Source: Paramacrobiotus metropolitanus (Eukaryota > Tardigrada > Eutardigrada > Parachela > Macrobiotidae). From it: a stretch of DNA of 64,000 nt. The stretch spans positions 496,001 to 560,000 of the forward strand of contig NW_026570270.1 of assembly GCF_019649055.1 (NCBI RefSeq), written 5' to 3'. Shown one piece after another: positions 13,020 through 54,373 of the stretch (position 1 is its first letter; each line of letters starts with the position of its first letter). The notes under the pieces were generated by a model. That model worked only from the letters and a program-made list of their open reading frames with translations. It did not search any database and was not told the origin of the DNA. The position numbers and the translations under genes were made by a program.

Positions 13020-14110
13020 GCAAACATAAAAATTCCACCACCAACACCGGGTAAAATAATCGGACAAGGTTCATAAATCGAGCTACTTATACAATTGCAC
13101 GGCGGAATCCTGAAAAGTGAAAAAATATTTCCTGAAACGTCGGTTCCCAAAACGCCAACCAAACAATGTCGCAAAAAAATCATTCCCGGGTACAAATTTT
13201 ACCACCCCTACATCACTGGGTTCGTCAATACTGACCCAGTTACATTTAACGCTGCGGTTCCCGAAAACTGTTCCTAGCCTAAAAGAATTCGGACCGGGTC
13301 CAAATTTCCGGACCGCCCGTATATTACTACGGCGGGTTCGTCAATAATGACCCGGTTATGATTTACGTTACGGTTCCCCAAAACTGCACCACCCGGGGCC
13401 GCTGAAAAAATCCGGACAAAGTCTAAATTTCCGGACCCCCCGTATATTACTACGGCGGGTTCGTCAGTAATGACCCGGTTATAATTTACGTTACGGTTCC
13501 CCAAAACTGCTCCACCCGGGGCCGCTGGAAAAATCCGGACCGGGTCCAAATTTCCGGACCCCCCGTATATTACTACAGCGGGTTCGTCAATATTGACCCG
13601 GTTATAATTTACGTTACGGTTCCCCAAAACTGCACCACCCGGGGCCGCTAGGAAAATCCGGACCGGGTCCAAATTTCCGGACCCCCCGTATATTACTACG
13701 GCGGGTTCGTCAATAATGACCCGGTTATAATTTACGTTACGGTTCCCCAAAACAGCTCCACCCGGGGGCGCAAAAAAAATCCGGACCGGGTCCAAATTTC
13801 CGGAACGCCCGTATATTACTACGGCGGGTTCGTCAAAATTGACCCGGTTATAATTTACGTTAAGGTTCCCCAAAACTGCTCCACCCGGGGCCGCTAAAGA
13901 AATCCGGACCGGGTCCAAATTTCCGGACCCCCGTATATTACTACGGCGGGTTCGTCAATAATGACCCGGTTATAGTTTACGTTACGGTTCCCCAAAATGC
14001 CACCACCCGACCCGGTCTACGCGTTTGCACTGGGTCCAAATTTACGGTCGAACACACATTTCCCCATTGGGTCCGTCAAGTATAACCCGGTTAGGTTCAC
14101 GATTTTAAAC
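13020..14110. repeat. 123-bp tandem satellite array
   Basis: GTATATTACTACGGCGGGTT-type sequence starts at 13319, 13442, 13565, 13688, 13811 and 13933, a spacing of 122-123 bp. Central units are nearly identical; units become divergent toward 13020 and 14110, the usual pattern of a satellite. The period is 41 codons, and the minus strand stays open for 214 codons (13918-13274) as a 41-residue repeat containing APGGAVLGNRNVNYNRV and EPAVVIYG. No start context, splice signal or flanking gene supports translation. Confidence 0.85.
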
Positions 14111-24894: not shown

Positions 24895-25566
24895 TCAGAA
24901 TACTTTTTTATATTCCTCTGTGCAGTCCGGCTGGGCGGACGGGTGGGCCTTCTTAAACGGCTCCAACTCGCTCAGCGCCTCAAACACCCGCCGAATCGTC
25001 GGATACGGATCCAGATCCACATGCCGCAGCTTGGCGTTGTACACCTGCGGCACCAGACAGCAGTCGGCCAGCGTCACGGCGTCCCCCACACAGTACTTCC
25101 CGCTGGTCTGCGCTAGCATAGTCTCCAGCCCCGCGAACCCCTTCTCAATCCAGTGCCCCGCCCAGTCCAGGGAGCGGGCAAAGTTCCACTCCACCGGGAC
25201 GTGATCCGGCAGGTACAGCCCCGTCAGGACCTGGTGCGGCTGGATCCCCGCGGTGATGGTCTGCACGAGACGGCGCACCTCCGCCCGCTGGTAGGGGTCT
25301 TTCGGTAAAAGGGGGTGCTGGGGTCGGGTCTCCTCCAGATACTCCAGAATGGCCACGGACTGGGTCAACACCTCCCCGTCAATCTGCAGCACCGGGACCT
25401 GGCCTTTAGGGTTCAAGCGCAGGAACGCGGGATCGATCTGGCCGCCTTTCTCCAGGTCGATGGGGATCAGTTTGTAGGGGATCTGCTTTAGATTTAGGGC
25501 GAGACGCACGCGCCACGAACTGGAGCTGCGGTACCAGGCGTACAGGGTGATTTCGTCTCCCGTCAT
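24895..25566 (-). CDS. Zeta-class glutathione S-transferase / maleylacetoacetate isomerase-like (copy 1)
   Basis: Single-exon protein of 223 residues, the usual length for GSTZ. The family isomerises maleylacetoacetate to fumarylacetoacetate with glutathione in tyrosine breakdown, in the cytosol. Seen: thioredoxin-fold N-domain (about 1-85) with the glutathione-site motif as SSSSWRVRLAL at about 14-24, LNPKGQVPVLQIDG, TQSVAILEYLEE, and a helical C-domain with GKYCVGDAVTLADCCLVPQVYNA. The motif is normally SSCSWR, so the Cys is Ser here. The gene is divergent from a second GSTZ at 26310, 743 bp away. Lack of introns is unusual here and could mean a retrocopy origin, but the frame is fully intact. 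Confidence 0.9.
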   Translation of the reverse strand: MTGDEITLYAWYRSSSSWRVRLALNLKQIPYKLIPIDLEKGGQIDPAFLRLNPKGQVPVLQIDGEVLTQSVAILEYLEETRPQHPLLPKDPYQRAEVRRLVQTITAGIQPHQVLTGLYLPDHVPVEWNFARSLDWAGHWIEKGFAGLETMLAQTSGKYCVGDAVTLADCCLVPQVYNAKLRHVDLDPYPTIRRVFEALSELEPFKKAHPSAQPDCTEEYKKVF

Positions 25567-26309
25567 TTTTGCAAAGAATTTATTAGGATTATATCAATAT
25601 TGAATTTTTAATGGAATGGAAAATGAGCACGGATTGAGAAACGTGATATGCGTATGAGACCGGTTGTTACATAGCAGCGCATACACAGCTGGCGTGATAT
25701 GCGGGTTTTATCGATTCTTGACAGGGCGCTCAAACGAGACGAGAAAGTGTTATCTCACTGGTGAATCGTTTAAGTTAACGGTTCAACCTTCAAATCTGCA
25801 CGCGGCATGTGGAAGTTAAAACCGGTTTACAAGCCGCAGTACAGCGCAGCCGGCATCCGCTGCTGCATAGTCAAACGGCGCATCTGCATATGGCACGTGT
25901 TCGCGGCGCACCGGAAGTAGCAACCATAAAAACTTGTAGTAATTCATTGGTTTTATCTCCATCCATCCAGGTACCGCTGATTAGAATAATTTTGGCACCA
26001 AATCAGAAAATTCCCGGCAAAGCGGGTGATTTACGGTTGGGCGATAGATTAAACTTCAGCCGATTACAAAGAATTCACCGAGTGTGCAGTTATTAGCGTG
26101 AAAACCGGTTTGATACGCGTACGACCAGCTGTTTGTACTAAAGACTGCGGACAGCCGACAGAGAGAGATGCGTCTGAACACGAATTAAACGTGCACAGCT
26201 CGTGATCACAGTCGTTTAATACGCCTGTGTAAAGTTGCAGTTTGGCTTTAAACCAGCTCACTCGCTAGCGGTGCACCACATCTCCCATCCTGATTTTCCT
26301 CCCAAAAAA
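25567..26309. promoter_or_regulatory. Shared spacer between divergent GST genes
   Basis: The 743-bp gap lies between the two start codons, so it must contain both promoters. No clear TATA box was identified. Co-regulation is possible but inferred only from arrangement. Confidence 0.4.
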
Positions 26310-26980
26310 ATGTCGGACCAGACCGTTCTTTACTCGTGGTTCCGTTCCTCCTGCGTGTGGCGCATCCGGCTGGCGCTGGCCTGGAAGAACATCCCCTACA
26401 CCAACATCCCCATCGACCTCAAATCCAACCAGCCCCAGGACGCCGAGTTCCTCAAGCTAAACCCCCTGGGCCAGCTCCCGGTCCTGGTCATTGACGGCCA
26501 CACTTTAACCCAGTCAGTGGCTATCTTGGAGTATCTGGAGGAGACGCGCCCCACCCGTCCCCTCCTGCCCAAGGACCCGAAGAAGCGGGTGCAGGTCCGC
26601 CGCATCGTGGAGAGCATCGTCTCGGGGATCCAGCCCCATCAGAATCTGGCGGGACTGTCGGCACCCCAGGGACTGCCGGAGGAGTGGACGTTCGCGTACT
26701 CGCCCGACTGGGGCCGCTACTGGGTGGAGAAGGGCTTCAAGGCGCTGGAGAGTATCCTGGAGAAAACCAGCGGGAAGTACTGTGTCGGGGATGAGGTGAC
26801 GCTGGCCGATGTGTGTCTGGTGCCGCAGGTGTACAATGCCAAGTTGCTCAAGGTGAATCTGGATGTGCTGTTCCCTAATATCAAGCGGATCAACGATAAT
26901 CTGGTGCAGTTGGAGGAGTTTAAGGGGCGCATCCGGCCAATCAGCCGGACTGCACGGAGCCATTCCGCAAGATGCTGTAA
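26310..26980 (+). CDS. Zeta-class GST / maleylacetoacetate isomerase-like (copy 2), C-terminal frameshift
   Basis: Start at 26310 (AAAAATGTC) opens MSDQTVLYSW, aligned with copy 1; an in-frame upstream start at 26235 would add sequence no relative has. The glutathione-site motif is SSCVWRIRLAL (family SSCSWR), followed by LNPLGQLPVLVIDG, QSVAILEYLEE and GKYCVGDEVTLADVCLVPQVYNA. At GGGG 26924-26927, after EEFKG, the frame leaves the family sequence. One base over, it reads the expected AHPANQPDCTEPF ending at TAA 26978-26980, which gives 223 residues like copy 1. As printed, translation runs to 27020 with an unrelated Cys/Phe-rich tail. Either a real one-base deletion or a homopolymer error. 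Confidence 0.85.
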
Positions 26981-27020
26981 TCCGTTTTTTTGTCACGGCT
27001 GTTGCTTCGGCTTTTATTAA

Positions 27021-30000: not shown

Positions 30001-31470
30001 TCACACCTCATTAGCGATGGTACCGTTGTCAATTATTGCCACAGTTACGATGTTGTGCGAGCTGACAAAGGTATCCGGCCTTAAAATCAGATGTTTGTTA
30101 CAATTACGTATACGCATAATATTAAGTACTAAAGCTAAAGCTTTAGTAATATTATGGTATACGGAATTGGTAGATTGCACTCGCAGAAGTCATATATGGT
30201 TTTAGCGCATGAGCACTCGAATGAGTGAAAATGGAGATTCTGCCGCATGGAAACACCACGTTTCTAAAAACGGCTAATTTAAAAAGAAAATGCGAAATTT
30301 TTTATGGTGATTAGGCCACTTGTGATCACTTTATGCAAACGATGTAGAGTTTATTGGAGAGAAAAGGTACATGGAAAAGGAACGAAAAAAAAACGTTGCT
30401 CTTTTGTTTGAGCATTTTTTTAACCAAATCTTGAAAATATTCGCAGAGTGTTTGTCAGTGAGATTTTGCCTCTGTGAAGCTTTGATGGAAGTATGTCTCG
30501 TATACTATATATTGTACAATCAGTGCATGCAAATGCAGCCGAATGTGTAAATCCCACTTTTTTCTATTTGCTCTATGTAAAACTTATTTTTTTTGTGTTA
30601 TCTTCACTAATACTATGCTGTATAGTCTATGCGAGTTTTGATTGCTTCTTCTTAAATCATACGTCGCAGCGCATAGTGTGACCCTTCCAGAAGGAATCTG
30701 GGGAATATTGCCTTGTACATACGTATCTTGCACTGTACCTGTACCTAGAATGCTTTCTGATAAGAGACGCAAATATTTTCCAGTACGTAAGATGTGCATT
30801 GTTTCATGCAGTGAGGCATTTCGGATGAAAAATACATAAAAATTTGAATACAGTAATTAAAAATATACTGCTCGTACTATAGTAGCAAAAGAATTTCTTT
30901 TTACGCCCCTGGATGGCTAAAAACCCCAAAAGGGGACATACAGAGTACTTTGCAAAGTTAAAGTCAAGCAAAAAACTTCAGTATTTTTTTGTTAATAATT
31001 TTTTTTAAGAAACGTTTTTAGGGCTGCTAAAAAATGATTTGCGCATCCGGTCATTCATTCTTAGGAGATGAACGATGTCTCTGTAATATCAGTACGAGTA
31101 CCGGCAATGACGGAGCAGTTTGCAAGATCCGCGCCGCGTACAGAATATTCGAAGATACCCGGCGTGACCCGCGGCATAACGATTGTAACGGTTCACGATC
31201 GCGATTCCGCGAAGATTATGACACCGAACAGCGTACACAAATCTCCGTGTACCGGTATCTACACCCGCCGTATTGCGCCGTCCCCCTCCGAGATGTTTTT
31301 CGCCGGGTTATGCACCTCCCCAACCGCAGACACGCGCTGCCGTCATGACAGCGGCGCGGCGCCTTCGATCGCACAGAACGGGTGGTTACGTTGCCATGTT
31401 TTTATTTCTTTAAAAACAATTCATTAGTCATTTGTTTTTTTGGTCCAGGTCGAGATGCGGATTTAAGTAC
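27021..31470. other. Long intergenic interval, no supported gene
   Basis: Mostly AT-rich. A 76-codon frame at 27775-28005 starts with a hydrophobic stretch but has no further support. A 17-bp inverted pair (28745-28761 and 29970-29986, TGTCATTTGGAATGAGA) could be transposon ends. 31034-31430 is GC- and CpG-rich with overlapping frames of 104 and 119 codons and ends just upstream of the TATA box at 31471. Confidence 0.4.
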
Positions 31471-31478
31471 TATATAAA
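31471..31478 (+). promoter_or_regulatory. TATA box of the NxSHA-repeat gene
   Basis: TATATAAA lies 138 bp before the start codon, so initiation is expected near 31500-31510. A canonical box suggests a strongly or conditionally expressed gene (inference). Confidence 0.7.
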
Positions 31479-31608
31479 TGGCGGAAAAACTCTGTATTTC
31501 TTCACCTGCTGATATTCAACAGCTGATTTGCTCTGAATACAGTGTTGTTACTTGTAATTATACCGGGGTTTTCAAGTGCACTGGCAGAACTGACCACGGT
31601 GTATTACA

Positions 31609-33154
31609 ATGGCTTTTCGGGTTATTTGCATTTCCGTGATAGTCGCTTGTTTTGCACAGGTAAGGAACAATTTTTACGACATTAATTTTTGCACTGTTTT
31701 AGAATAACATAAAGCAGTTCTGCGAAATATCTTATTTCACAATCCGCCTTGAGAATTTTTATGTATGTAGTCATATTAGTTACAAATTGCGGCCTGCGCT
31801 GAACGTATCTGTAGCGTACTTATAATGTGAAGGTAAGGCACCCGTAAAAAATATTTCTTGACTAGAAGACATAAAAAATTCTTGGCATATCAGCTTGATA
31901 AACATCTACAAGGTAATGAATCATTTTTTTAAAAAAACTACTTATTTATAAACACGCCAACATCATTTTAAATTCCCCATACAAGAAGCCCAGACCGCAG
32001 TCAATGCTCTGTACGAATTATTTTGCTGTTTATTTTGGCAGGCGGCATTTTGTGTGCCGGTTGCGGAAGCGGAGCATGCGGACCACGCTGAACAAGGCAA
32101 AGAATTCCACTTCGACGTTCCTGCTCACGCTCTGCAAGCCGATGACCATTTGAATAACGAATCCCATGCTGAAAACGCTAGCCATGCTGAGCCCAAGCTG
32201 GATGTCCACCTTAGCAATGAATCGCATGCCGACAATACCAGCCATGCTGAACCCCATTTGCTGGATGCCCATCACAGCAACGTCTCCCATGCTGAAAACG
32301 CTAGTCATGCTGAGCCCAAGCTGGATGTTCACCTTACCAACGAATCGCATGTTGACAATGCCAGTCATGCTGATGCCAAGCCAAAACTGGACATTCAGTC
32401 GGCCAACGAATCACATGCCGACAACGCCAGCCATGCGGTTATTAAACGCGAAGCTGACCTCCACCTAAGCAACGACTCCCATGCGGAAAACGCCAGCCAT
32501 GTGGAGCCCAAGCTGGATGTCCACCTCAGCAACGAGTCGCATGCCGAAAACGCCAGCCATGCTGATGCCAAGCCCAAACTGGACGTTCATGATCAGTTGG
32601 CCAACGAATCCCATGCCGACAACGCAAGCCACGCTATCATAAAGCGCGACGCTGCAGGTGAGCTATCCCATGCTGCCGACAACGCCAGCCATGCTGAGGT
32701 CATTCCCAAAGCGGATGTCCGCCTGAGCAACGAATCCCACGCTATGAATGCCTCCCACGCTGAGCACGTTATGGCGATGAATCCTTTCGATGTCATTCCA
32801 GCCGTACATGCCGATGACAGTGCTGCCAACGTTTCGCACATTCCCCGCGGCTTTGTTCCTAGTGCCGTTGGCGACAGACCTGACCTTTCGATCCACTTGG
32901 ACAACAACACCGCTGCATCCCATGCCAATGCTTCTGATGCATCGACCGTCTCCGACAAACCAGTCGCCGCGGTAGAACAGCCATCGGAGCAGAAAGTGGT
33001 CGCACTCCAAGCTGCCGCTAACAGCACCCAGCCAGTTCTCCCCGCTCAAGAGCACCATGAAATTGCCTTCAAGAATTCCGATGGTGCAGCGATCTCACAG
33101 CAGGATGCACAAAAAGTGCAACCTGATGGATTAGGAATCGAACATCCAAACTGA
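31609..33154 (+). CDS. Secreted, sequon- and histidine-rich NxSHA-repeat protein
   Basis: Two exons, 31609-31659 and 32042-33154, joined in phase 0 (CAG/GTAAGG, TTGGCAG/GCGGC), coding for 387 residues. Residues 1 to about 22 (MAFRVICISVIVACFAQ start) form a signal peptide; no other membrane segment is seen. Residues 56-258 contain ten copies of a 20-24-residue unit, NESHAENASHAE plus a spacer such as PKLDVHLS. Nearly every unit has two N-x-S sequons six residues apart; with those in the tail I count 23 N-x-S/T sequons. The rest is Ala/Asp/Glu/His/Lys-rich, lacks Cys after residue 21 and has few aromatics, so it should be disordered. I recognise no family. It could be a heavily N-glycosylated extracellular or eggshell/cuticle glycoprotein, a His-based metal binder, or a desiccation-type disordered protein; none is shown. 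Confidence 0.85.
32156..32764 (+). repeat. In-frame coding repeat of the NxSHA protein
   Basis: Ten units of 60-72 bp, recognisable by AACGAATCCCATGC and AACGCCAGCCATGCTGA. Spacers alternate between EPKLDVHLS-type and DAKPKLD- or IIKR-type. Unit 8 is doubled and its second half lacks the first sequon. Synonymous differences between units show the array is not freshly copied. Confidence 0.85.
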
Positions 33155-33305
33155 AAATGATCATACCGGAAGTGTCGTTTCGAATTAGTACTTCTTAGTA
33201 TTCTTTCGCGATAATTGGGAATTTATATCTAGAACCGTAGATTCCTCAGGTTTTTTTTTTATTTTTTTTTTGAAGCATATTGTTTCATATATTATGTTCG
33301 ATCCA

Positions 33306-33311
33306 AATAAA
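33306..33311 (+). terminator. Polyadenylation signal AATAAA
   Basis: AATAAA lies 152 bp after the stop codon of the NxSHA-repeat gene, downstream of a T-rich tract. Confidence 0.6.
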
Positions 33312-34709
33312 TAGAATCTGTCGAACGTGCTATTTCCGTTAATATGTACTCGTATAGCAGGAATACATGGCAGATAAACTATCTTTTAGAAAATGGTCCG
33401 AGCTTTTTCGACCCGTAAAATAATATGCCCATCTATCTATAGATTCGTTTTTAGTGAAAGAACTAATTTAATCCGTAATGGTACCCGTGTGCGAAGGTAC
33501 GTAAAGAGTAGTACAGTACGTAGTACGTACATATTGCAGAGCCGATGAAATGGTGGATATCGTTTTATGGTCTAGCCAGTCAGCTACAATACACCGGCAG
33601 AATACAAATGCTCTGTTCAGTCTATTGCAAAAAGGGTTTGAAAGTTTTATTGTAACGTTGCAAATGCTCTATTCAAATGTCATATAGTGCGTCCATTCAG
33701 CTGTGAGTTTTCTTTGCTAGACAGAGTTTGTTTCATAGTTTAATCTGATAACGTGATACAAAAGACGTCATATCGACGGTTTTGCACTGGAGACAGCGAA
33801 AGCAAATATTTTTGCAGCGAGAAAATCCAGCTGACACGGCGATGTTCACTTGCTGCGTTGTGCTTGCCGTGAAAAGTAACTTTCAATGGTTTATTAGTGT
33901 TAGATTATTCGTGAATGTTGACACAAAACGAAAAAGTGACTACACTTTGTCCTCCAGTGTATTGGAATATCAAAGAGTATTTTCCAAATATTTTTCCAGC
34001 CACATTTCCCAGTTAGACGGCACTGTTAAAAAAGGGAAACCTGCATCTGTTCGTCAAAAATGTGGCGAAGTGACCACTTCCGGGTAGCCTAATTAAGCGC
34101 ATCCAGTTGAAAAGCACTGTAAAAAAACCAGCTGCGCCAAATAAAATGTCAAAAATTAACTGTATTTTAATGTATAACAAGTGTACCTTTCTGTAAATAA
34201 AAATCGTAAAATTATTGTACGATTTATCGTTTGAAAACGTTTTCCGTGTTAGAAATTTATTAAAATGGTGGACCATGTAACAGAGAAAGCCGAGGTTGCG
34301 CTATGTTTAACCAGTGGGTTTTTTTTGAACACTCGGACTTGTGGTTTCTTCTAGTGAATTCCCAGTACAGCTGCGCTATCAAATTTCCCCAGGCTTCTTC
34401 AGCACACACACACGCTGTCGTACACACTGCAGTTTGCGACTTTGCACCGCGAGAGAGGAAGTGCAGCCAAGTGCGGCCAAGTGCAAACGATAACATTATG
34501 GAAACGATATTATTCAAACGCGATACCAGCTGTGCTTGGCGCAACAAGTGCTTGAGCCGTAAAATTCCCTTTTGACAGGCCCAGTCCCATAAACCTTGTT
34601 TTATTGGAATCTCGTACAACCTACAGCACACCATGAATCTGGCTGCCAACACGCCATGTCGTGTCCCCGGCCGACGTATTCCCAGCTCGGACGCCATTCT
34701 CTCCTGACC
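33312..34709. other. Intergenic / 5' region of the GPCR gene
   Basis: No recognisable exon before 34710. Frames of about 100 and 90 codons (33782-34087, 34303-34575) have no supporting features. Confidence 0.35.
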
Positions 34710-37700
34710 ATGGATGTGAGCAACAGGTCAGCGTACTGCTATTATCGCCTGCTGGCCGATGATCAGCTGGAGGATCTGTGCGGGCGTCCGCTGCACAACG
34801 CCAGCAGCCGCGAGGCGTTCGTCGTGGAGGGATGGACACGGTTTGTCTATCTGATCACCTATCCCCTGCTGCTCTTCCTGGGCACCGCCGGGAATGCCTT
34901 CTGTCTCAAGCTCTTCCTGCAGAATCGCAAGAAGACACTGCAGACGGTGCTGCTGATGGTGCTGTGCCTGGCCAATATGGTGGTTATGTGAGTATATATG
35001 TAAATGCAGTAGAGTGGGTGTTACGTCTGTGTAAACCGATCATCCTCGCCGTGTTCATGGAGTGGGCACTTTGATTGTAAATTTAGAACGTTGGCATTTT
35101 TGTGGTTAATGTGCTGATGGCATCGCGTTTTGCTGCACGCGTACGCGGCGAAATTTCTGCAGTCAGCTTGGGAGAGATAAGATCACCCGAACGACGGAAA
35201 AGTAAATATTTTGATAAATAATTTTGTCGATTAGATAGAGCGCGAAATATAATTTTTTTAAGCGCGACAGCGGCGTCTTGTTATTAAACAATTATTTTTA
35301 AAAATAAATTCTCATATTCAGTTGTACGGTATGCCTATGTCTTTGCATTTGACGTTTATTGTAAAAATTAAAACTGTTTAAGTAATTCATGAAGAAAACC
35401 GTACTTATGAAATCCAGGTACACTATCTGTACAGACTGTACTTAATAAACAGAGAAAAATCGAAAATCGTTCTAGTTTTTGAATAGCCATTTTTTTGTTT
35501 CAGTACTGAAGACATGCGATAGCGTCAAATTACAAAAAGTCTTGATGTGCTCAAGTATTTCAAAAATGCCATTATAATGTACGGGACGGTATTACAGTAT
35601 CCGTTATCTGCCGGAAACGAAATTGGTTGAAAAGGGCGGAGTGGTTGTAAACTTTTCATTAACATTTCGTGGTGTATTTTGTTCTGCCGATGTCACATCC
35701 GGCTAAACGTCGGTATTTATATCGCAGATTGACGACTTAATCGCCAGAGTTTTTTGTTATGCATTTCGCGGTGAAAACAGTGCACTTGTACTTGATGTGT
35801 GTATAAAAAACGTGACATACCGGTGTTGCAGGTTTCTCGATTTGCCGGAATATTTCGGCTGCTACTGTAATGGCATTCGTGATGACTCGAGTATTGTGGA
35901 AGCATTGCGACGCACAGCGGGAACATTAATGTGGACACAGCATACCTTTATTCTCATCTCCAACTGGTACGGGTTTTATCGCTTTGACGATTTCTTTTTA
36001 ACCAGCCGTTAAAAACGAGATGTGTTTAAGTAAGCAGCATTTTCTCCGGTAACGTATTTGAACCAGAAAGTAAGTAATGAAATGAATTACATAAATGCGC
36101 AAAATATGAGAAAAATAAAATATGAGAAAATATAAGATCCGGAAGATGCGGTTTAACATTACAACGGTATACAACCAGAAGTTGTTAATGACAGAGCTTG
36201 ATATCTCGTATTCACTGACAGCAGTAGAGTTGGAATAATAAACAATTCTTTACATATTTTTTATGGCTTGTGCATAAATTTTTTAAGCCAGGAAATTAAT
36301 GAAATACATATTTTGCGCAAAGTAAATAAAAAAATATGCAGTTCAACACTGAAGCGGTATACAGCCGGAATGTTAATTGTGAAACAGAACATTTCGTGAT
36401 TGCTGAAACGAAATTTACGTATTCCCGAATAAAAAAAAGCCGCGAAAATTCCTAAATAATTTTTTATGTGTTTTTTATTCCGCTATATTAAAGTGTGTAA
36501 TCGCCATCGGATCGTGCAGAGCATTAAATTCGTTCCGTTTATTCGTAGGATTTTAATTTTACATGGAATCTCCAAACTGCTGACGATCACCCGGCCCCGG
36601 CTGACGATGGAGCCGTTTCACGGCTACGTTTCCGGTTTCGTCCTGACCATCATCTGTCTGCTCTTCTCCATTCCGCACATTATTTTCTATCATGAATGGC
36701 GCTCCGACACGGAGGCCGTGTGTCCCATGAGCGTGTGCCACTATCTGAATAAATTCTCCCGAATCTATCGCAGTCTGGATATTTCATCCTTTGAGATCGG
36801 CATTCCCATCATCACCTATGGACTGGTGCTGATTGTCAGCGTGGCGGTTTTTGTGGTCATATGGAAGCATCCCAAATCGCGGCCGGTAATAAGTAACGGA
36901 ACGGTGGATACTGAGAAACCCGTGGAGACGAAGGAAGTCGGTACTATGGCCGAAAGCATGGCGCTAACGACGCTGCATGGTGAGAAAATAGTGGTATACT
37001 AAAAGAAAACTTTTACGGTAATGTTATTATCAATATGAAAAACAGAAAATAAATGTAAGGGATAAATCGAGAATATAAAAAGCATTTTATCACAATTTTT
37101 AGAATAGTTATTTCATTTGCTTTGTATCGCCTGTTGCAGCTTGCTATAATGGTGTTGTCCTTACTGGCAGTGGCAGTTATCAGTTGTAAGTTTAAAGCCC
37201 GACCGAAATTTTTGTATTCGAAATTTCAGAAACTTTAACGGTTTTTTATGAAAAGTAATGGCTCTGCTCCTGATAGAAGCGTCATAAACGAACTGGTTTG
37301 TAGTGCAAGAGATACATTAGTTTGTGTTTGATAGTTTGTTGCATCGCTTTCATGAATACTCGTACGAAGGCTCTATGACGTTCCGCGATTCGATTCGACC
37401 TAATTTAGCTCGAATTCTTCAGTACTGAATATACTGTGATAAGTGTGATTGTGTTCCTTTTTTACGAGCTTGAGTATGGCATACCGAAGTCGGAAGTACA
37501 TACATGCCAAATACAACTTTTTCTCTGTGGTTTCCAATTTTTCGCTCTTTTGTTCTACTCGGCATTACCAGTAAAAGTGAAAAGTTCCACATTTGCTGTT
37601 CTAGTTTATGATAAAGAAGAGGGAGTCCTTAAGCACTCAGTAGTGAAAAAAGCGATCTATCTTATGTGGATTTTGTGCTGTCCGGGCGTTTTGTCTGTTT

Positions 37701-38422
37701 GTCTTGTGTTGGACCTCTCGGTATACATGCATTTAGTTTTATGGATGCAAGTTGTTGCAGAAGCGGACGAAGAGAAAGCCAGCTCCTCCCACTCCGTGCC
37801 GCCGGCCATTCCCCTCAAAGCGCGCTGGTGGGGCCTGTCCTCCCCCGGGCGCATGCTGAGCCGCTGCATCCTGCTGTACCTCATCACCCACCTCCCGGAC
37901 ATGATCTTCATCCTCCTACTGACCCTCTCCAGCTATCCCAGCTGCGCCCTGACCATTCCCGAGGCGACCTTCATGGACTACTACCCCGTCATCCACATCA
38001 TCGCCCTGGTGAATTATTCCCTGAATTTCCTGTTATATGTCGGTTTACTGGAGAAATGGCGACCGAAACGCCGGGTCCTGACCCCGACGGCCAATGTCCG
38101 CGGCACGGTCCGCCCGGTGCAGTTTGAGCTGGCCCCCTTGGTCCGGGCTGTGGACACGTTGGCCGTGCCGCCGGGCAGTGCGTCGGGATCGCGGAAGGTC
38201 TCCTCCGAATCCGGATTGCGGAAGATATCGCGGAGGTTGTCGTTCTGGACGCGCCCGAAGAAGTCGGATGTCGCGGAGCCGGAAAAGCCGATTGTGTCGG
38301 CGCTGGTGAAAGCCGTGGGCAGTATTCTCAGTGACCAAGAGGTAAAATTGAAGCGACCAACAGAGGCGGACAAAATTTTTCTGGAAATGAAAATAAAAAC
38401 GTATGAAAATATTTATAATTAA
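34710..38422 (+). CDS. Rhodopsin-class GPCR, peptide-receptor-like, four exons
   Basis: Exons 34710-34987, 35832-35966, 36549-36979 and 37761-38422 join in consistent phases to 501 residues. The start is chosen at CACCATGG-like context (GACCATGG); upstream in-frame ATGs exist. The N-terminus has two sequons (NRS, NAS). TM1 carries TAGNAFCL; TM2 is around LLMVLCLANMVVMFL; TM3 is FILISNWILIL followed by SKLLTITRPR; TM4/TM5 flank an extracellular loop with two Cys; TM6 has LLYLITHLPDMIF; TM7 has ALVNYSLNFLLYVGL. The shape (TITRP after TM3, N-x-S-x-N in TM7) resembles invertebrate FMRFamide/neuropeptide receptors. The DRY position reads SKL and TM6 lacks CWxP, so it is divergent. A Ser/Lys-rich tail of about 120 residues follows. 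Ligand unknown. Confidence 0.8.
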
Positions 38423-43569: not shown

Positions 43570-46034
43570 ATGCCAAAGGTGCAAAATTGCATCTTTCCAA
43601 AATGCTGCGGTACTTGTTCATCTTTTTCACGAAGGCCTGTTCAGCGGCGACTCCTGCTAATCAGAACGTAGCTTCTACATACGTGTCACACATCGTATCG
43701 CGGCAGATAACGTCCCACACAAGTGGTAGTCCTCGGAACCATTTCCAACGTGTTGCACCGTCTGGACGCTTACCGTTTTCACGTACAAAACCAGCAGTCT
43801 CCGCATACGACTCGATCCCCGCATTACCCCAAGAGAGCAGCACAATATCGTTAATGCCATTGTGTCTCTCGCGCCATAAACCGCCAGCTTTCTTACACGA
43901 TAACCTATGGAGACCAGTTTCTCGACATTCTTACCACAATTGTGACAACGATGCTGCTCGACTACTTTGGCACCCAACCATAAGCCGACGCTTATGCGGA
44001 ATGATTGATCGTCCAACCAGTTTCCAAAGACTTTTGATGGCAGAGCATTTAGCCATGCGTCGGCATACTTGCTGCTAATGGCGTTTAGCCGCGCTTATTT
44101 CGGTCGTCGGTACCTGTTGCTGCACACATCTCCTTCGTGTCATTTTCCAAGACTGTGTGGTCCCAAACGCTGATGCACACGAGCGGGTTCTGGTGGTGTA
44201 TCGGTACAGTCAGCCTGACGCTTCCACAAGTCGACCGCCGCCTCAATGGTCTCATCACTGCAGCGTTCAAAAATCCCAGTCGTCAGCGTACGGGTGGAAA
44301 CACGGAGGCCAAAAAGGCCGAAGTAGCCAGTGCTTTCGTCCAACAGACACCGAGACCTCCTCTCGCCACAGGGAGAGACGCTTGCAGGAATACGGGTCCA
44401 TGTAAACGAGTGTTTGTGATTGTCTCCAAGGCGACCCGTGCCAACTCGTCAAACTCATCCAGGCAGACGGGCGCTTTCCAACACGGACTGCATCGCAATG
44501 TGTAGAGCAGTTTCGGTATGGCCAGGCATTTCCGCAGGATGTAGAAGGCATGGTGGGCGCTTATTAACATTAAGCGACCTAGAAGCAATTTCAGGGTCGC
44601 AATTTTTTCTTGTAAGCAGACCATCAGAGCTTCCAAAGTTAGTGGTGCACCAAATTTAACATTTCAGGCTTTAGTACAACCGCCCCGGGGGCGCTTGCAT
44701 GAAACTTGTTCACAATGTCTTGCGTTCAATGTCGGAGCCTCCCAGTACGAACAACTCGCTCTTTCCGGGATTTAACTCCAGTCCAACGTGCTGACCCTCC
44801 GCAATGATTTTGACCAAATCATTTCCACCTGCTACACCTTTCCTCCCAGAGCCCCATCATCGAGAAAGAACTCACCGAGCTCCGACGTTAAATTGGAGGA
44901 TATGGGCTGAGCGGCAAGGCAATACAACAGGGCTCCACCTGGATCACCCTGCTGTATGCCAGTGGCGGAGGTAATCGTGTGGCCATCGGTGCCGCATGCC
45001 AGTATGGAAGGTGCGGAGTATGCGCTCCAGAAGTGCGCATAATACTTCGGGAAGGTTGGCCTTCTTGGCGCACCTCCGTGTCACGATCTTAGAAACCGCC
45101 CTACGATAAAACAGGCCAGGTGCAATAGGGCGAATGCCGCCGTCTTTTTCACGCAGTGCGATGAGGTTTGCTCCAAAGGGGACAGGGCAGAACTCCTTAG
45201 GCATCTTCCCGATAAGTATGAAATTGGCCCACTTTATCAGGACTGAACAAAGCAGTAAGTCCACGGCCTTCTTGCAGTTTAGCATGTGGTGTGTTGTGGC
45301 TTGAGACCGTCGTAATGAGTCGTCTGGTTGCGAGGGGTGCTTTGTTTTCAGTCCTTCCAGGACCGCCTCATCGATTTTCATAACGGCATCCTCTGATGAT
45401 AAGCGCGTAACAGTCGCTCGCACGTTACATTCATCAATAAAATTTGCGTGTGTGCGGCGAAGTTGCTCTTGTGTGTCTGACTTACGATGGGGAGCCGAGG
45501 TAACTTTTCTTCACGGATGCAACTTTGAAATTCCGCAGCTGTCACCGGGAGGTAACTTTTCTTCACGGATGCAACTTTGAAATTCCGCAGCTGTCACCGT
45601 ATTCGTGCTGTGAGGGACTCCTGCTTTTCCGGATCCTTGCCACCGTCAACACTAAAAACCAATGCACAAAACAAAAGTAAAGGCAACAATTTAGCAGCAG
45701 TGGGTTCCTTTACAAAATGCTCGATAGTGCAGGCTAGTCTCTGCAGCTTGCGGGCGAACAGCACGAGGGATTCGTTCCATGATGCAAGCAAATCGTCTTG
45801 CGGCCAACAAGTTCTTGAGATTTCAGAATTTTGAACAACTGGTGCGTCTGGAATTTCGGGGTCTGCTACGGGAACCGGCAAGACGGGGAGCAGACGGAGA
45901 TCAGTGGAGCGACCTTTCGAGCAGACATTTCTGTGTTTTCCCCAGCCGACGAGCAATTTTCCACATCCCGAGCAAGCGAGTAAATAACTTATCCGCAACA
46001 CAAAAATTATTTCCGTAGGGCGGAGTAGAAACAT
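43570..46034 (-). pseudogene. Reverse-transcriptase relic B, near full length
   Basis: Reading downward from 46034: an N-terminal zinc finger CSGCGK..W.KH...C (about 45975-45920); a reverse-transcriptase N-part with PVPFGANLIAL, KDGGIRPIAPG and RRAVSKIV (about 45230-45080); a thumb-like region with LRKCLAIPKLLYTLR and LDEFDELARVALETI (44560-44400); a C-terminal part with SFRISVGLWLGA, CHNCGKNVE, GKRPDG and LVWDVICRDT (44010-43680). These lie in at least four frames, so it is dead. The catalytic YxDD part was not recovered. It is the most complete of four relics of this retrotransposon family in the window. Confidence 0.75.
45497..45599. repeat. 51-bp tandem duplication inside relic B
   Basis: GAGGTAACTTTTCTTCACGG through GCAGCTGTCACCG occurs at 45497-45547 and again at 45549-45599, exactly repeated. 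It arose after insertion of the retrotransposon and further disrupts it. Confidence 0.85.
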
Positions 46035-52616: not shown

Positions 52617-54373
52617 GTGTCTGTGCGTCGGTCACCGCCCCCAAATAAACATATGTGCGGTGGTATTTGTTGCCTTATTTACATATGCACGCTGACTGTA
52701 AATAATTACTCAAGCCTACTTATATGCACATTTCGAAAACATTGAAATCTGTGTTAAAAGTTTTCTTTCTTGATTATGTGACATTCGGAGACACAGTCGA
52801 TGTGGTGTGTGAAGACATCGATACGGTTCGAGCGATGTCAGCAGAATTGGGACTGCAACTTAACGTCAAGAAATGCGAGTATTACATTTTCGGAGGAAGT
52901 CCAGAACAGCGCGCACAAATTGAAGCACGTTTCATCCAGCGCTGCCCTGGTATGAAGCGCCTCACTGAAAAGGACGTGGTTTTGCTCGGTGCGGTAATCA
53001 CAAGTGAATTGGTCGACCCATTGTTGGAAGAGAAGATCGGCATGGTGAACATAATTATTTCTCGTCTGTCTCCCTTACCGTCCCATCCAGCACTTTTATT
53101 GCTGAAAAATTGTCTCTCCGTCTCCAAACTGTTGTACTTTTTAAGAACGAGCGAAACGTTCCATTTTCCGGAGATCCTTAATGAATTCGACTCTTCTGTA
53201 CGCAGAACCCTTGAGGAAATTACCAACGTGACCATTACTGATGAAATCTGGGAACAGGTAACCTTACCTGTACAGGAAGCGGCTTAGGCATCTGACGTAC
53301 CGAACGACTAGCACCTTCGACATTCCTTGCCTCGGTCAACTCGGTACGCTTGCTTGTGCCAAATATGACTAACCTGTACAGCGAAGCATATGTGACACGC
53401 GCGGAACAAGCATGGAAGTCAATGGGGCCCGCGGAACTTCCTACCAAAAATTTGCGTGCTTCACAGCGCGCATGGGACATACCTGTCGTTCTCATTCAGA
53501 AAGAGACTGTGTTACGCCGAACCAAGTCCGTTAACCAAAAGCCCGGCTGCTAGCCGTGTCTCAGCCCGAATCCGGACTGTGGCTTAATACTGTACCAGCG
53601 GCAAGTCTCGGCACTTTGCTGTCAAATACCGAAGTAAGAATATCCGTTGCGCAACGCATCGGCGTCCCAGTATGTATCGAACATCAGTGCAAATGCGGCA
53701 GCACCGTTGACGTGTGGGGATATCACGGGTTGGGATGCAAGCGTCTTAAAGCGAAGATTACCCGGCACAACTAAGTTAGAGATGTTATCCATCGTGCGTG
53801 TGGTACGGCCAGCATCTCTTCAGTTCTGGCACCTCCGGGCCTCTACCGCGACATTCTGAAACGACCGGGCGGCATGAAATCAGTTACTTTCAGTCATGGA
53901 AAACTCTGGGTTTGGGATGTCGCCTGCCCGGACACCATTGCCACCTCCTATATCGCCAAGACGTCCGAGGAGGCCGGCGCGGCCGCCTCCATGGCAGAAA
54001 CAAAGAAAAACCAGAAGCCCGAATATTTACGGGATAGGTCAATTTCTTTGCTTTGGTTTTTGAAACAATGGGTGTGTGGAGCAAGGAATCGAAAAGTACA
54101 ATGTCTACACTCGGTAAGAGGCTTTTTGAGCGGACCATGGAGAAGCGGTTCACTCAGTTCCCGAAGCAGAGAATCAGTAATGCTTTAATGCGAGGTAATG
54201 CCGCTTGCGTTCAGAAAACCTTTTGCATCGGGAGGAGGCTGGATGAAGTGTATTATGTGCTGAAATAATGTACTGCTTGGTTTAGCGTTTAACCAATGTT
54301 CAATTGTGTAACTCAATAAAAACCGTCTATGCAGGGAGCCAAATGTATTAATAGTGTCTGTGCGTCGGTCACC
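52617..54373 (+). pseudogene. Reverse-transcriptase relic C, 5'-truncated, with flanking direct repeats
   Basis: From 52724 the frame reads FFLDYVTFGD (degenerate YLDD active site), LGLQLNVKKCEYYIFGG, KNCLSVSKLLYFLR and LNEFDSSVRRTLEEI, stopping at 53287. Later pieces in other frames give SEAYVTRAEQAWKSM, CGSTVDVWGYHGLGC, KLWVWDVACPDTIATSY, AAASMAETKK and GKRLFERTMEKRF up to 54268. The palm before the active site is missing. A 20-bp direct repeat GTGTCTGTGCGTCGGTCACC lies before and after (52617-52636, 54354-54373), extending as weaker similarity for about 60 bp. The family matches relics A, B and D. Confidence 0.75.

Follow-up and report, generated by a model that had tools for sequence, protein, structure and literature searches.

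A gene of the tardigrade Paramacrobiotus metropolitanus encodes a protein of 387 amino acids in which paired N-glycosylation sequons and histidines recur in a ten-unit array, and this array is under strong purifying selection. The gene lies within the window analysed here, a stretch of 64,000 nucleotides from contig NW_026570270.1 (assembly GCF_019649055.1, positions 496,001 to 560,000 of the forward strand). Cloning primers published for a TPS-TPP gene of Paramacrobiotus sp. TYO (PMC8277472) have gene-specific ends that each occur exactly once in this genome, on C84, oriented towards each other at a distance of 3.7 kb, while reversed-pattern controls matched nowhere; this assigns the genome to that strain, which is equated with P. 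metropolitanus (PMC11191345). The unit under selection looks like NxSHA rather than the bare sequon. Our preferred, still tentative reading (probability of roughly 0.4) is that the product would be a secreted, disordered, histidine-rich glycoprotein with part of its sites glycosylated, and that in extracellular material its histidines would serve as metal ligands or as a pH switch. The disordered protectant families that PMC11127935 names are described as acting in the cytosol and mitochondria, and SAHS, the secreted family, as folded. Tardigrade extracellular material is poorly characterised, and a disordered repeat protein that is apparently secreted and under clear selection offers a concrete candidate for it.

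The gene model consists of two exons (Table 1). The exon-intron structure and the product length of 387 residues proposed in the initial annotation were confirmed by the GT donor at 31660, the 3' end of the intron (TTTTGGCAG) and the course of exon 2, whose frame stays open until the stop at 33154 and whose core codons differ chiefly at synonymous sites. Exon 1 was placed on the sole ATG of 31480-31612, a hydrophobic run and a boundary at GTAAGG, and GC content is 33% in the intron vs. 54% in exon 2. The claimed TATA promoter is present at 31471, as a sequence element only; a further ATG at 31478 overlaps this element and therefore probably lies before the transcript. Directly upstream of the TATA box, the window is GC-rich (55-65%) and CpG-rich between 31100 and 31400, with AT-rich flanks. 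A genome search with this stretch returned a single match, itself, and it is possibly a regulatory region.

Table 1 Features of the gene (window positions)
Feature	Position	Strand	Description
TATA-like element TATATAAAT	31471..31479	+	138 bases 5' of the ATG; seen in the sequence
Exon 1	31609..31659	+	51 bases, 17 codons; carries the start codon and the larger part of the apparent signal peptide
Intron	31660..32041	+	382 bases, GT-AG, phase 0
Exon 2	32042..33154	+	1113 bases; completes the apparent signal peptide, then encodes the array and the C-terminal region up to the stop
Ten-unit array	32141..32770	+	aa 51-260; in 9/10 units two NxSH sequons stand six residues from each other
Two three-unit blocks	32276..32653	+	aa 96-155 and 160-221; period 64 aa / 192 bases
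C-terminal region, no regular repeat	32771..33151	+	aa 261-387; four scattered sequons
AATAAA polyadenylation-type signal	33306..33311	+	seen in the sequence

The 387 residues include 18.3% Ala, 10.6% His, 10.1% Ser, 7.2% Asn and 1.8% Gly. Cysteine is confined to residues 7, 14 and 21, and tyrosine and tryptophan are absent, so the near absence of cysteine and aromatics noted earlier holds for these three but not for phenylalanine, which occurs eight times. The N-terminus is hydrophobic, with candidate cleavage positions after residues 14, 16, 18, 21, and 27. An apparent signal peptide, also part of the initial annotation, is suggested by the hydropathy profile and the residues at -3 and -1, and the gene product is probably secreted.

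Sequon density is extreme, as had been claimed: the 387 residues hold 23 sequons (21 N-x-S and two N-x-T), whereas 2000 residue shuffles averaged 3.0 and never exceeded 9. Of these sequons, 20 belong to the longer motif NxSH, for which the shuffles averaged 0.29 and peaked at 4. Nineteen sequons are located inside the His repeat and four in the C-terminal region, and the three that lack a following His are all C-terminal (three of the four outside the array). Ten paired units had been counted, of which nine do pair their sequons six residues apart, while in the tenth (aa 225) the first Asn is gone and Ser-His-Ala persists. The unit form NxSHAxNxSHA is strict in seven units, or in nine if Val counts as Ala, rather than in all ten, and a fixed unit of 21 residues had to be given up, as start-to-start distances vary between 20 and 24 residues (e.g., the unit at aa 175-194 reads LDVHLSNESHAENASHADAK).

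The array also carries an HxxxxxH spacing. Pairs of histidines six residues apart number 17 where 4.4 are expected (z 6.3), and in six of the ten units a third His six residues before the NxSH pair extends the pattern to HxxxxxHxxxxxH. Asp or Glu follows three residues after the Ser in 16 of the 20 NxSH motifs, a pattern that acid-directed kinases phosphorylate, and such a kinase could be what conserves the Ser in NxSH. The two three-unit blocks are apparently related by duplication, and Tandem Repeats Finder reported the 192-base period across 32276-32631.

Any repeat built on the motif would show such an excess of sequons or of NxSH, and selection was therefore tested. The duplicated blocks, compared over 60 aligned codons, differ by 18.0 synonymous and 9.0 replacement changes, i.e., pS 0.476 and pN 0.063 (Fisher p = 2e-8, rounded counts). 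Values were pS 0.655 and pN 0.042 in the block core (30 codons), and pS 0.308 and pN 0.085 in the block spacers (30 codons). When all pairs of the ten units were pooled, the core gave pS 0.640 and pN 0.158, a figure that takes in the degenerate unit at aa 225, whose first half is one residue out of register. Gene conversion does not explain this pattern, since it should have erased the synonymous differences as well.

The nine intact units have lost none of their 18 NxSH sites (19 of 20 remain when the degenerate tenth is counted), and the simulations with which this was compared omit the tenth unit, which favours the 18/18 count, and assume units that arose independently from a consensus (a star), an independence that the block duplication reduces. 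In the neutral star simulation (nine units, 300 runs, mu 0.5, with a fourfold divergence of 0.535 vs. 0.55 observed), NxSH was retained at a mean of 0.7 and a maximum of 4 of the 18 sites. When only the sequon was constrained, at matched divergence and over 1000 runs, His was kept at a mean of 5.8 and a maximum of 13 of 18 sites (observed: 18), and Ala at a mean of 7.3 and a maximum of 14 (observed: 16). At the lowest rate (mu 0.3, fourfold divergence 0.41 vs. 0.55 observed) the maxima were 16/18 for both residues, hence the result for Ala depends on divergence and that for His does not. It is the His count, 18 of 18 against a simulated maximum of 13, that makes the selected module look like NxSHA and not like the sequon alone. 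The sequon-only simulation further predicted 1.9 replacements of Ser by Thr at the 18 repeat sites, and seeing none has P = 0.14; the all-Ser repeat sequons are therefore uninformative, and the preference for Ser over Thr was dropped as an argument against glycosylation. The conservation of His is compatible with a metal, pH or structural role and does not discriminate among them.

The computed charge from residue 22 onwards is -40 at pH 7.4, -20 at pH 6, and +6 at pH 5. The charge-hydropathy boundary puts both the mature chain and the repeat region on its disordered side, with the C-terminal region just across it on the ordered side. Single-sequence AlphaFold2 runs yielded a mean pLDDT of 43.7 for the exon 2 product (13 residues near the C-terminus reached 70-90) and 46.7 for units 3-8 alone, low confidence in such runs being weak evidence of disorder. 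Sequence features and predictions together support the initial description of a secreted, disordered protein with paired sequons and histidines. Left-handed beta-helices formed by hexapeptide repeats have 18-residue coils of three hexads. Here three His-centred hexads occur in six of the ten units, but the units measure 20-24 residues, and AlphaFold2, at low confidence, showed no coil that would support a beta-helix with three hexads per unit.

No relative was found in the libraries searched. Within the organism's own genome (169.8 Mb in 533 contigs), where such searches have limited sensitivity for divergent repeats, the exon 2 product returned one candidate, the gene itself, a DNA search with 31300-33300 matched only itself, and a 64-residue piece of the array gave five matches, all within this gene. 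A degenerate DNA pattern for SHAENASHA with up to three mismatches occurred at 16 places in the genome vs. five for a reversed-pattern control; eight of the 16 are in this gene (eight of the ten units) and eight elsewhere. Among the latter, three places with two mismatches (L004-L006) were rejected, as the frame read contained no second unit, and the other five had three mismatches. At one of the rejected places (L005, C5:719300-719900) the open frame is hydrophilic and lacks an obvious signal peptide; a single stretch of it (GNASFHADNAGHAVH) bears a loose resemblance that is probably due to chance. The C-terminal region had eight weak matches elsewhere in the genome (E 2.5-7.8), three of which were read: two (L001, L002) belong to one repeated element, of which they are near-identical copies, and stops interrupt the frame around them; the third (L003) is of low complexity and looks unrelated.

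For the exon 2 product, Pfam contained no family at E <= 0.1, the PDB sequences none at E <= 1, and NCBIfam no model near its cut-off; two NCBIfam adhesin models (E 0.019 and 0.028) lay far below their cut-offs and were taken as compositional. Viral contigs gave no match, and a bacterial match in a Salinisphaera MAG (L008, 23% identity in the best segment) was dismissed, as only a short peptide was seen to be shared, in a frame that we take to be a SorC-like regulator. The sole Lipocalin_7 match was not accepted as an SAHS gene, its closest PDB sequences being ordinary FABP-like proteins. The repeat was not described in the titles and abstract openings of open-licence PMC papers. Novelty is therefore provisional and relative to the libraries searched (Pfam, PDB, NCBIfam, own genome, prokaryotic, and viral). 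Secreted repeat proteins confined to single lineages are common among invertebrates.

Elsewhere in the window, a 123-base unit is tandemly repeated 6.0 times at 13279-14009 (92% matches); the array's minus-strand frame is open for 226 amino acids, and a P22 tail-spike Pfam model matched it only below the cut-off. Two adjacent, divergently oriented genes at 24895-25593 (-) and 26220-27020 (+) encode glutathione S-transferases, with the Pfam domains GST_N and GST_C. Downstream of the gene, exon-like ORFs with hydrophobic stretches at 34593-38422 (+) look like a seven-helix receptor gene, and Pfam had no match over the cut-off for three of these ORFs. The ORFs at 44944-45510 (-) and 52706-53287 (+) look like reverse-transcriptase fragments, with a Pfam match in neither.

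In the preferred reading, that of a partly glycosylated, histidine-rich secreted protein, some of the Asn residues would carry N-glycans, with the NAS sites probably the most frequent carriers, and these glycans would keep the chain soluble and extended. The regularly spaced histidines would act as ligands for divalent metal, with titration near pH 6, and the protein may condense in acidic secretory compartments, then spread, or become cross-linked by metal, in the extracellular material. Secretion, glycan occupancy, metal binding and pH switching, as well as the place and time of expression, are suppositions of the model, whereas the gene structure, the repeat, the purifying selection on the module, the low predicted order and the lack of a relative in the libraries searched are observed. 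Mammalian SHBG has its N-x-S sites skipped more often than N-x-T, and the cotranslational enzyme of mammalian cells is reported to skip closely spaced N-x-S sites (PMC4750078), so that partial occupancy would be expected here. A His ladder flanked by glycans at partial occupancy would be apt for an extracellular polymer that responds to metal or pH.

The histidines are what separates this reading from that of a dense, mucin-like N-glycan carrier, in which the sequon pairs would be selected for glycan display and His would be secondary. The 23 sequons in 387 residues speak for such a carrier, and disordered, desiccation-inducible N-glycoproteins do exist in Hypsibius exemplaris (PMC12167791), but we consider it unlikely, if worth keeping in view: His was kept at 18/18 sites in the intact units vs. 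at most 13 in 1000 sequon-only simulations at matched divergence, N-x-T accounts for only two of the 23 sites, and closely spaced N-x-S is what the mammalian cotranslational enzyme skips (PMC4750078). The 'glycan array' of the initial annotation is weakened on the same grounds, as His is conserved beyond the need of a sequon and 21 of the 23 sites are N-x-S, many of them closely spaced. A secreted structural protein that metal-His cross-links would harden, or that would guide a mineral, in cuticle, eggshell, stylet or salivary secretion also strikes us as doubtful, despite an apparent signal peptide and an acidic, His-rich repeat composition that would fit it. Some other animals have His-rich mouthparts hardened with metal, which counts in its favour, yet the repeat protein, with its 1.8% Gly and neither Tyr nor Trp, differs from known Gly- and Tyr-rich proteins of hard tissues.

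We rate it as rather improbable that the protein is a secreted anhydrobiosis protectant analogous to SAHS, located in the extracellular layer round the cells of dried animals; Pfam showed no relation to the FABP/lipocalin fold of SAHS. In favour of it, Paramacrobiotus sp. TYO is a desiccation-tolerant tardigrade (PMC8277472) and H. exemplaris is described as having a tun-specific extracellular layer of ~100 nm together with active secretory cells (PMC7062702). A desiccation role as such would be plausible, with the tolerance of the source animal as its context. A long shot would be a dual use of NxSHA, with each His next to a potential glycan, in which N-glycans space and solubilise a metal- and pH-responsive His ladder that forms a reversible extracellular gel round tardigrade cells during drying. 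A prohormone cut into repeated peptides would share the apparent signal peptide and the repeats, but its dibasic Lys-Arg is present in only two of the nine spacers and amidation-type Gly-Lys-Arg nowhere in the sequence, and we give this very little credence. That the array, a tandem DNA array after all, is a non-coding repeat or a dead gene left open by chance is hardly credible given the complete gene signals and the large excess of synonymous over replacement change between the blocks (p = 2e-8).

Compared with known systems, the protein shows no LEA motif (no Pfam family at E <= 0.1), its apparent signal peptide argues against the cytosolic CAHS, and dibasic sites do not surround each repeat as in neuropeptide precursors (Lys-Arg in 2/9 spacers). 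The tardigrade Mn-dependent peroxidase AMNP (g12777) is Golgi-localised and binds Zn and Mn (PMC11313143) and has an active-site disulfide, whereas here no Cys follows residue 21. SAHS proteins are secreted, some with sequons (PMC11127935), and in our protein the hydropathy and the -3/-1 residues would be compatible with a signal peptide; the solved SAHS are folded FABP-like barrels, and here neither Pfam nor PDB gave a lipocalin/FABP match and the AlphaFold2 model, at low confidence, had no barrel. Three N-glycoproteins of H. exemplaris that are disordered and induced by desiccation (BV898_03883, BV898_01100, and BV898_11928; PMC12167791), one of them annotated as a WAP-domain protein, resemble it in tardigrade origin and high predicted disorder, a likeness drawn from descriptions and not from sequence. 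HRG/HPRG of vertebrate and bivalve plasma is secreted and N-glycosylated and is reported to bind divalent metal, with an unstructured His-rich region (PMC5608300); the present protein is likewise apparently secreted, His-rich, disordered by prediction and sequon-bearing. In the same source HPRG is credited with six theoretical sequons, and its architecture comprises cystatin-like domains and Pro-rich regions, with disulfides presumed, whereas the exon 2 product matched no Pfam family at E <= 0.1, cystatin-like N-terminal domains included, Cys at only 7, 14 and 21 leaves none after residue 21 for disulfide-stabilised domains, and 19 of the 23 sequons lie in the His repeat itself. By the features compared, the protein is not an HRG, SAHS, LEA or AMNP, and in function it would stand close to the secreted His-rich glycoproteins.
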